Shown piece after piece: positions 1,646 to 3,978 of a DNA stretch of 37,845 nucleotides. Under the pieces are notes generated by a model that was not told the origin of the DNA, did no database searches, and worked only from the letters and a program-made list of their open reading frames with translations. The stretch comes from Syntrophaceae bacterium CG2_30_58_14. GTDB taxonomy: Bacteria > Desulfobacterota > Syntrophia > Syntrophales > UBA5619. Within the stretch, counting starts at the first letter, position 1, and the number at the start of each line of letters is the position of its first letter. The position numbers and the translations under genes are program-made. The stretch is from NCBI GenBank assembly GCA_001873745.1, contig MNZQ01000087.1, positions 1 to 37,845 of the forward strand, written 5' to 3'.

Positions 1646-3325
1646 ATGCGGAGTATTATGCCGATTCTTGTCATCATCTTTCTGATCCTGAGTTCCCCCG
1701 TCTGGGCCGCCGTCCCATCGGACGAATGTCTCAATTGCCACGAAGATTTCAAAAAAAGGACCTTTCACAAAAGCATTGCCTGTACGGACTGCCACATCGG
1801 CATCAAAGAGATCCCTCACGAGGAGAAACTCGCACGTCCCGCATGCAATGCCTGCCACAAAAAGACCGTTGAGCGCTACGCGGCCGGCATCCACAAATCC
1901 AAGGGCCTTGCCTGCAATCAATGCCATCAGATCCATGGGGAAAAAAAGGGAACGGGGGCGGATTGCGCTTCCTGTCACCCCAACGTCGCCCACAAGGCGC
2001 TGCCTTCCAAGGCCAAACACCTTGCCACGCTGAATTGTGTCGCCTGCCACGGCAAACTGGATAAAAGCGGGATTACGGCGACGGTTACGCTGCCCAAGGG
2101 GGCGACCCTGGAGAGGAAGGTTGTTGACCGGGATGGCAACGGTTTTGCCGACCCGGCCGAGTGGCATGCCTTTGAGGCCCTGCTTGATCAGAAGTTTAAG
2201 GGCTATAAGCTGGAGAAGCAATACTGGGCCTATGGCGATCACCACGAGATCATGCCCAAGGCCGCAGACTGCGGCGAGTGTCATGAGAAAAGGACCCGCT
2301 TTGCCAGCGCGGTGGGAAGGATCACCGACGTGACGAGCTACAGCGTACAGGTCACGCCCTCGGTTTTCATCCCTGAATTCCCGTCCCTCCGCGAGTTCCC
2401 CAAGACCGTGCACGGACAGAAAGGGGTCCGGTGCACCGACTGCCACACTTCCCAGGAAAAGATCACCGACAAGGTCTGCGTTCGCTGCCACGAGCAGGCC
2501 TATCATACCTATGAAGAATCCATTCATGCCAAGAAGGGGGCCACCTCCTGCACCGATTGCCATAACCCTCACTTGATCAAGGCGTATAAGGAGTTCAACG
2601 CCAAGGAACGGATCGCGATCTGCTCCCGCTGCCACAAGGACTACATCACCCGGCACGAATGGCTGCCAAACACCACGCTCCATTTCGACTACCTCGAGTG
2701 TACGACCTGCCATAGCCCGGGCTCGGAAAAGAGCATGGTCTTCTTCTTTGCGGATAAAAAGGGTAATAAGAAAAACACTCTGCAATACGAAGCTCTCGAA
2801 CGGGTCTTCGGCCAAGACGTACATCTCAAGTCGGTCATTAACGCCTACGCGGAGAACATGGTCAAGGGCGAAGAGATCGGCCGTTTCGTCGTTGACCTGA
2901 AGAAAAAGATGGGGAAAGGGATCTTCATCGATGCGGAAATAATCGTTACGAAGGTGCATCACGACTACTCGGTCACGAGGCTCAAGGAGAGGAACTGCGT
3001 CACCTGTCACTCGCCCCAGGCCCATTTCTACAATTCCATGTACCTTATTCTGCCTGAAAAGGACCGGCACATCTATGTCCCGGTCAAAGGCACGCTGCTC
3101 TCCGCCTACCCGATCGGAATGGCGTTGGATATCTACCTCCTCGGGGAAGAAAAAATCACGAAGGACGACATCTACGCCCTGCTCGACAAAGCGCCGGGGG
3201 GGGCAATCGCTTACGCCAAGAGCCTCGGTTTCAAGTTGATCGACCTTGTCGGGGTGATCCTGGTGATCCTGGTGATTCTCTCGCTCCTGGCGCACGCGCT
3301 GCTGCGGATACTGGTGAAACGATGA
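1646..3325 (+). CDS. Membrane-anchored multiheme cytochrome c (13 CxxCH motifs)
   Basis: From the ATG at 1646 the protein is 559 aa. It has a signal peptide (MRSIMPILVIIFLILSSPVWA), 13 CxxCH haem c sites (for example CLNCH, CTDCH, CNACH, CNQCH, CASCH, CVACH, CGECH, CVRCH, CSRCH, CTTCH, CVTCH), and one C-terminal membrane helix (LVGVILVILVILSLLAHALL), so it should be periplasmic and anchored in the inner membrane. Six haems sit near the N-terminus and six in the middle. The thirteenth follows a haem-free stretch of roughly 100 residues. Between haems 6 and 7 lies an EF-hand-like loop, DRDGNGFADPAE. The stop overlaps the start of a cytochrome b gene (ATGA), so a quinone-linked electron transfer complex is likely; its redox partner is unknown. 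ATG 1658 is an alternative start with CGGAG four nt upstream, but 1646 gives the signal peptide a positive residue. Confidence 0.9.
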   Translation: MRSIMPILVIIFLILSSPVWAAVPSDECLNCHEDFKKRTFHKSIACTDCHIGIKEIPHEEKLARPACNACHKKTVERYAAGIHKSKGLACNQCHQIHGEKKGTGADCASCHPNVAHKALPSKAKHLATLNCVACHGKLDKSGITATVTLPKGATLERKVVDRDGNGFADPAEWHAFEALLDQKFKGYKLEKQYWAYGDHHEIMPKAADCGECHEKRTRFASAVGRITDVTSYSVQVTPSVFIPEFPSLREFPKTVHGQKGVRCTDCHTSQEKITDKVCVRCHEQAYHTYEESIHAKKGATSCTDCHNPHLIKAYKEFNAKERIAICSRCHKDYITRHEWLPNTTLHFDYLECTTCHSPGSEKSMVFFFADKKGNKKNTLQYEALERVFGQDVHLKSVINAYAENMVKGEEIGRFVVDLKKKMGKGIFIDAEIIVTKVHHDYSVTRLKERNCVTCHSPQAHFYNSMYLILPEKDRHIYVPVKGTLLSAYPIGMALDIYLLGEEKITKDDIYALLDKAPGGAIAYAKSLGFKLIDLVGVILVILVILSLLAHALLRILVKR

Positions 3326-3978
3326 AAAAGGTTTTCCTCCATACGCTGACCATCCGAATATGGCACTGGATCAATGCGCTGATCGTCATCGCGCTGATGA
3401 TTACCGGCATCCAGCTCCGGGCGCCAGGGATCGAAGGGATCGCCCGCAAGATGGCCGTCTGGATCCCCGAATACAGTATGGCCGTCCTGATCCATAAGTA
3501 CATCGGTTATGCGATGGCCCTCTCCTTCCTCTTCTGGTTGATCTATATCATTGCGAGCGGCAGCTTCCGGACCCATTACATCCTGCGACCGGCGGATCTC
3601 CCAACCTTGGTGAAGCAGGCACTCTACTACATCTTTGGCGTATTCCAGGGGAGTGAAAATCCTTTTACTCCCACTGCGGAAGGGAAGTTCAACCCTTTGC
3701 AGAAGATCGCCTACGGCTCGGTCATGCTCGTGATTACCCCATTGATTGTCGTCACGGGCATCCTCTTCAGCGACATCTTCCTCTTCCGCGGCGTGATCGA
3801 CTGGCTGGGCGGAATCCGACTGCTCGATGCGCTGCATGTTTTGGCAAGCTACCTGTTTCTGTTAAATTTGATTGTCCATCTGTACATGTGTACGATGGGA
3901 CACCACATCTTCGACCATGTCAAGGCCATGATCCTGGGCTTTGAAGAGATGCCGGACGAGTCCCCTTTGAACCATTGA
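3322..3978 (+). CDS. Four-helix cytochrome b subunit (cytochrome b561 / Ni,Fe-hydrogenase b-type)
   Basis: The 218-aa integral membrane protein has about four hydrophobic helices (near residues 13-33, 58-80, 135-155 and 170-195). Histidines are placed to ligate b haems: HW at the first helix, LIHKYIGY at the second, and LHVLASYLFLLNLIVHLYM in the last. This is the arrangement of the di-haem cytochrome b subunits of hydrogenases, formate dehydrogenase and thiosulfate reductase, which pass electrons between the quinone pool and a periplasmic partner. The ATG overlaps the stop of the 13-haem cytochrome, so the two are translationally coupled and probably form one complex. No catalytic molybdo- or Ni-Fe subunit is nearby, so the direction of electron flow cannot be read from the sequence. 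Confidence 0.85.
   Translation: MKKVFLHTLTIRIWHWINALIVIALMITGIQLRAPGIEGIARKMAVWIPEYSMAVLIHKYIGYAMALSFLFWLIYIIASGSFRTHYILRPADLPTLVKQALYYIFGVFQGSENPFTPTAEGKFNPLQKIAYGSVMLVITPLIVVTGILFSDIFLFRGVIDWLGGIRLLDALHVLASYLFLLNLIVHLYMCTMGHHIFDHVKAMILGFEEMPDESPLNH

Follow-up and report, generated by a model that had tools for sequence, protein, structure and literature searches.

Electron disposal from acyl-CoA oxidation in syntrophic acid-degrading bacteria is an open question. A stand-alone cytochrome unit leading from quinol to the periplasm, linked to ETF:menaquinone electron flow in one relative, is a candidate exit other than formate or hydrogen. The window analysed here, a 37,845 nt stretch of contig MNZQ01000087.1 of Syntrophaceae bacterium CG2_30_58_14, carries a cytochrome gene pair of this kind, and the locus raises the question of what complex the pair encodes, how its c subunit came to hold 13 haems and in which direction its electrons run.

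Both genes lie on the forward strand and overlap, as described in a first-pass annotation of this DNA. The c-type cytochrome gene is located at 1646-3325 (559 aa from ATG 1646) and the b gene at 3322-3978 (218 aa), with the b start overlapping the c stop by 4 nt in an ATGA junction. ATG 1658 is a likelier c start than ATG 1646; a GCGGAG Shine-Dalgarno-like site lies just 5' of it, and the equivalent codon is the start of the c gene in the related locus L006. Upstream of the pair on the same strand, at 1589-1616, is a promoter-like site (TTGACA-16-TATTAT) that agrees with the consensus at 11 of 12 positions, a consensus match only; hexamers and spacing are identical in assemblies L002-L005. In those assemblies the pair is kept at 84-93% identity with the genes for RuvX, MltG and MraZ downstream. 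Because it is conserved with the same downstream genes, the pair is neither chance nor contamination, and the equal synteny rules out misassembly as well. The pair is a real, conserved two-gene unit.

The c protein (1658-3325, or from the earlier start 1646) contains 13 CXXCH motifs between residues 28 and 455, a signal peptide (hydrophobic residues 4-22) and a single C-terminal helix at 531-549, in agreement with its earlier description as a periplasmic 13-haem protein with a C-terminal membrane anchor. Twenty periplasmic His residues outside the CXXCH motifs are enough to supply second ligands for all 13 haems. Pfam matches are to PF14522 and PF14537. The b protein, likewise annotated correctly as a four-helix cytochrome, is of b561/HydC type and CbcB-like, with four predicted helices and a PF01292 match at 6.5e-23. 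His58, 172 and 186 are present in 80/80 aligned b proteins and His15 in 79/80 (one gap), i.e. four conserved His as expected for two bis-His b haems.

The first-pass annotation recognised no named complex with this layout. That does not hold, since Geobacter CbcBA (GSU0593/0594; Cbc5 cluster), a menaquinol oxidase, consists of a b561-type PF01292 b subunit and a membrane-bound heptahaem c subunit (PMC7726332, PMC10470525), and both subunits encoded in the window align with a CbcBA-like pair of Geomonas. The comparison with GSU0593/0594 runs through the Geomonas pair, which can be taken as CbcBA from its haem count, anchor, PF01292 partner and adjacent 12-haem gene together with the published descriptions of cbcA-cbcB-cbcC (PMC7726332, PMC10470525). 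The order of genes, c and then b, is the same in Geomonas as here. The b protein is 39% identical to the Geomonas CbcB-like protein. In a profile alignment the C half of the c protein (haems 7-13 and anchor) matches residues 45-352 of the 362 of the Geomonas heptahaem protein, a presumed CbcA by the above reasoning, at E 2.6e-30 with 32% identity, C-terminal anchor included. The pair differs from Geobacter CbcBA in haem number (13 CXXCH via a second CbcA-type module, against seven haems in CbcA) and in surroundings, with a CooC-like ATPase and RuvX in place of cbcC, cbcD and cbcE. CbcL of Geobacter, a proposed quinol oxidase in which a multihaem c is joined to a HydC/FdnI-like b domain (PMC6295460), resembles the pair in that combination; however, in CbcL a single fused polypeptide carries nine haems and six helices, whereas here there are two reading frames and a different haem domain.

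The haem number can be accounted for by tandem duplication of the CbcA-type module. The N half (haems 1-7; 1709-2317, forward strand) aligns with the Geomonas CbcA-like heptahaem protein at E 1.4e-19 and with the C half of its own protein (2255-3322, forward strand) at E 2.7e-23. Since each half aligns with the CbcA-like protein and with the other, 13 would equal 7 + 7 - 1, a tandem duplication with haem 7 common to both modules. Judged by these alignments, the 13-haem protein is a tandem-duplicated, fused CbcA-type module sharing one haem. Multihaem proteins might in principle align through their CXXCH motifs alone, and on such a reading the N half would be an unrelated multihaem domain rather than a second CbcA copy. 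Haem spacing does differ between the halves (18,21,23,17,24,78 in N; 54,15,24,24,26,99 in C), the N-half sequences form a long branch and the predicted structures are of low confidence (mean pLDDT 51 for the N half, 49 for nearly the whole c protein). Yet when the sequence was shuffled with all Cys and His left in place, the observed scores were not attained once (0/500), and a chance, CXXCH-driven alignment was rejected on this ground; in a control with an octahaem protein from the same genome but not related to it, shuffles attained the score in 41/500 and 24/500. Similarity also extends beyond the haem motifs. A non-haem motif around HxxLPxxxxH is common to the aligned CbcA-type halves, and at equal places, between haems six and seven of each half, lies an insert that aligns with an EF-hand-like stretch of the Geomonas protein; the EF-hand-like loop of the N module, between haems 6 and 7, is DRDGNGFADPAEW. 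Finally, the N unit matches that of another set of 13-haem proteins, plainly of CbcA type, at 3.2e-29. An unrelated N half is thus very unlikely. The nearest solved structure is PDB 28pb, a 278-residue protein that matches c residues 281-474 at E 1.7e-22 and the Geomonas heptahaem protein at 1.3e-86.

The other set, proteins of 660-670 aa at L149:6037-8734, L150:6250-8924 and L151:7255-9872, has 13 haems, two intact inserts of ~100 residues and the same b gene following the c gene; in these sequences the doubling of the CbcA-type module is plainer than in the window's own protein. Profile scores, i.e. the above N-to-N match and a C-to-C match at 1.5e-58, favour a single origin of the two doublings, but AU tests do not discriminate on this point (p 0.44 and 0.38). 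Two loci show departures from the 13-haem pattern. At L010:3937-5250 the c protein has only 11 haems, and the stretch around haems 6-7 with its insert is seemingly missing. At L005:1207-2946 the sixth haem site is SVACH in place of CVACH, which may reflect a genuine loss of the site or an error in the sequence.

Among 84,980 species genomes scanned, relatives of the b protein were present at 80 loci, most with a multihaem c gene directly before the b gene or fused to it. Haem number across these loci tracks lineage: 13 in the window's group; 7 in the c partners of Geomonas, Tharpella and Bacteroidota, and also in Desulfomonile and Anaerolineae, where c is fused to b; 9, 13 or 17 in Pseudomonadota and Nitrospirota/Nitrospinota. 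The b-protein tree sorts by partner type, with 8 changes, the minimum possible for nine groups, and the order c then b is kept in all 13-haem loci read. Pairs with 13- or 17-haem c proteins in Nitrospirota (L015-L018, L020, L021, L025) have the same CbcA-type C-terminal core and the same b family as the pair in the window, but differ in having no second CbcA module; in Nitrospirota and other lineages, the 9-, 13- and 17-haem proteins have their extra haems spaced in a four-haem pattern. The count of 13 has therefore been reached by two different routes. The first-pass annotation had proposed a search for the pair across the phylum, and its distribution is patchy, i.e. a few genomes of its own order and a second family of the phylum. 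Within the order, the 13-haem protein is found in 6/151 genomes (E <= 1e-40), comprising 5 of the 11 genomes in the window's genus and one from elsewhere in the family; near relatives of the host genome are labelled Syntrophaceae or Syntrophales. Within the phylum, 19/395 genomes, host included, give matches at E <= 1e-30. Eight of the 19 belong to one other family and match over near full length at 40-47% identity; the seven of these that were read all have 13 haems, and the eighth is on a contig equal in length to the contig of L011, likewise a 13-haem locus.

No catalytic subunit adjoins the pair in the window or in the other 13-haem loci read, molybdopterin and hydrogenase subunits included, and this part of the first-pass annotation stands. 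Neighbours in the 13-haem loci were identified by the order of the genes and the N-terminal parts of their products, and at selected loci also by Pfam. The pair could nevertheless handle electron transfer for a catalytic oxidoreductase and have its catalytic subunit encoded at another place in the genome, as PF01292 proteins often serve dehydrogenases and hydrogenases. The b561-type subunits of formate dehydrogenase, hydrogenase and thiosulfate reductase have the same fold and haem ligands, and the closest relatives of the b protein that do not belong to the 13-haem group (about 45% identical; L012:4084-7988 and L013:7078-10841) are flanked by genes for a 4Fe-4S ferredoxin-like protein and for an aldehyde:ferredoxin oxidoreductase (AFOR). 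Unlike those enzyme subunits, however, the b protein has no catalytic gene adjacent to it, and NCBIfam dehydrogenase-subunit models reach at best 114.5 bits on it, far under the 204-bit cut-off. Multihaem c is absent from the L012 and L013 loci, so multihaem c and AFOR-type partners replace each other. A catalytic partner encoded at a distance is accordingly most improbable. The arrangement in L012 and L013 points to the b part as an exchangeable quinone module, for which other partners are possible.

Neighbouring genes differ among relatives. In its own genus the pair is flanked by a CooC-like ATPase gene and RuvX-MltG-MraZ genes; in the window the CooC/MinD-like ATPase, with a GGGCAC motif, is at 775-1515 and RuvX is downstream. 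The ATPase gene precedes the pair only in the window's genus and in L148, and a conserved promoter-like site stands in front of the pair itself; the ATPase was therefore treated as a neighbour. In other relatives the surroundings of the pair are not those of the genus. At L006:449-8696 (and in the near-identical L007), the genes of the 13-haem pair are immediately preceded by those for an OYE, EtfA, an EMO-like membrane protein and EtfB. The membrane protein has Nitrate_red_gam and CCG domains, which fits EMO, and in Syntrophus EMO passes electrons from ETF to methylmenaquinone (PMC8805022). The arrangement in L006 thus links the pair to ETF/menaquinone electron flow.

The earlier proposal that a stand-alone b and c unit exchanges electrons between quinone and periplasm is supported by the lack of an adjacent catalytic subunit in the 13-haem loci read, though the layout has a name, CbcBA. 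The pair is likely a CbcBA-like quinone:periplasmic-cytochrome oxidoreductase with a lengthened haem wire, and it probably serves electron transfer between quinone pool and periplasm. In this scheme the b subunit, an inner-membrane protein carrying two b haems, would exchange electrons with menaquinol, the presumed quinone substrate, and pass them to the anchored c subunit. The 13 haems would form a wire of two heptahaem CbcA-type modules in tandem with one haem in common, of which the membrane-proximal module would do the job of CbcA, and the added outer module would lengthen the wire and present it to small periplasmic cytochromes, putatively e.g. PpcA-like trihaem proteins. Extracellular or interspecies electron partners are possible. 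Doubling CbcA would be a simple route to a longer haem wire, through haem sharing. On this reading the pair is an electron exit of known kind in a new form, not a new kind of machine, differing from CbcBA in the doubled c subunit; no 13-haem CbcA-type protein was found in the open literature.

Net flow would most likely run from quinol to periplasm. The same complex could also run in reverse, with periplasmic cytochromes, reduced by a partner cell or by periplasmic formate or hydrogen oxidation, feeding menaquinone and in turn ETF-linked enoyl-CoA reduction or another cytoplasmic sink. A reverse role of this sort has been proposed for CbcBA in Seep-SRB2 (PMC10553843). In Syntrophus, enoyl-CoA can be respired via menaquinone, EMO and ETF (PMC8805022), and the L006 operon joins ETF and an EMO-like gene to a reductase of the OYE type. 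Against this, CbcBA of Geobacter is described as a quinol oxidase (PMC12307469), one that works without a catalytic subunit (PMC12307469, PMC10470525), and no gene for a periplasmic electron-donating enzyme is beside the pair in the loci read. Reverse operation is considered unlikely, and quinol oxidation is the preferred direction. A broader suggestion, itself doubtful and put forward tentatively, is that CbcA-type wires have been extended in two ways, by whole-module tandem duplication with a common junction haem and by the addition of haems in tetrahaem steps. The outcome would be a graded family of 7, 9, 13 and 17 haems tuned to reach different partners, in which the 13-haem form would allow syntrophs of the Syntrophales type to pass electrons from ETF, by way of menaquinol, on to carriers in the periplasm or at the cell surface, as an alternative or a complement to making formate or hydrogen.

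The gene set of the host (3.04 Mb) is in keeping with a periplasmic electron network linked to quinone, in an organism that lacks sulfate respiration of the Dsr type. Menaquinone synthesis genes are present (PF02621), as are genes for two PpcA-like trihaem cytochromes. The host genome yielded partial homologues of EMO, but no true EMO. With dsrA absent from the genome a sulfate-respiration context for the pair was rejected, and with no MtrB-type porin (PF11854) encoded there an MtrB-type conduit was rejected. At L105:403-10237 of the host genome, CcsBA-like genes cluster with genes for FeS proteins, for cytochromes with 4, 8 and 16 haems and for two membrane proteins of NrfD type; the cluster probably encodes a separate respiratory complex. 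The host also encodes a c-b fusion of CbcL layout (L106:4654-7458; 934 aa, 19 CXXCH, PF01292 domain). Proteins with 19 haems and of a length similar to this fusion are found in Bacteroidota (L051, L058, L069 and L073), beside pairs of a 7-haem c and a b protein.
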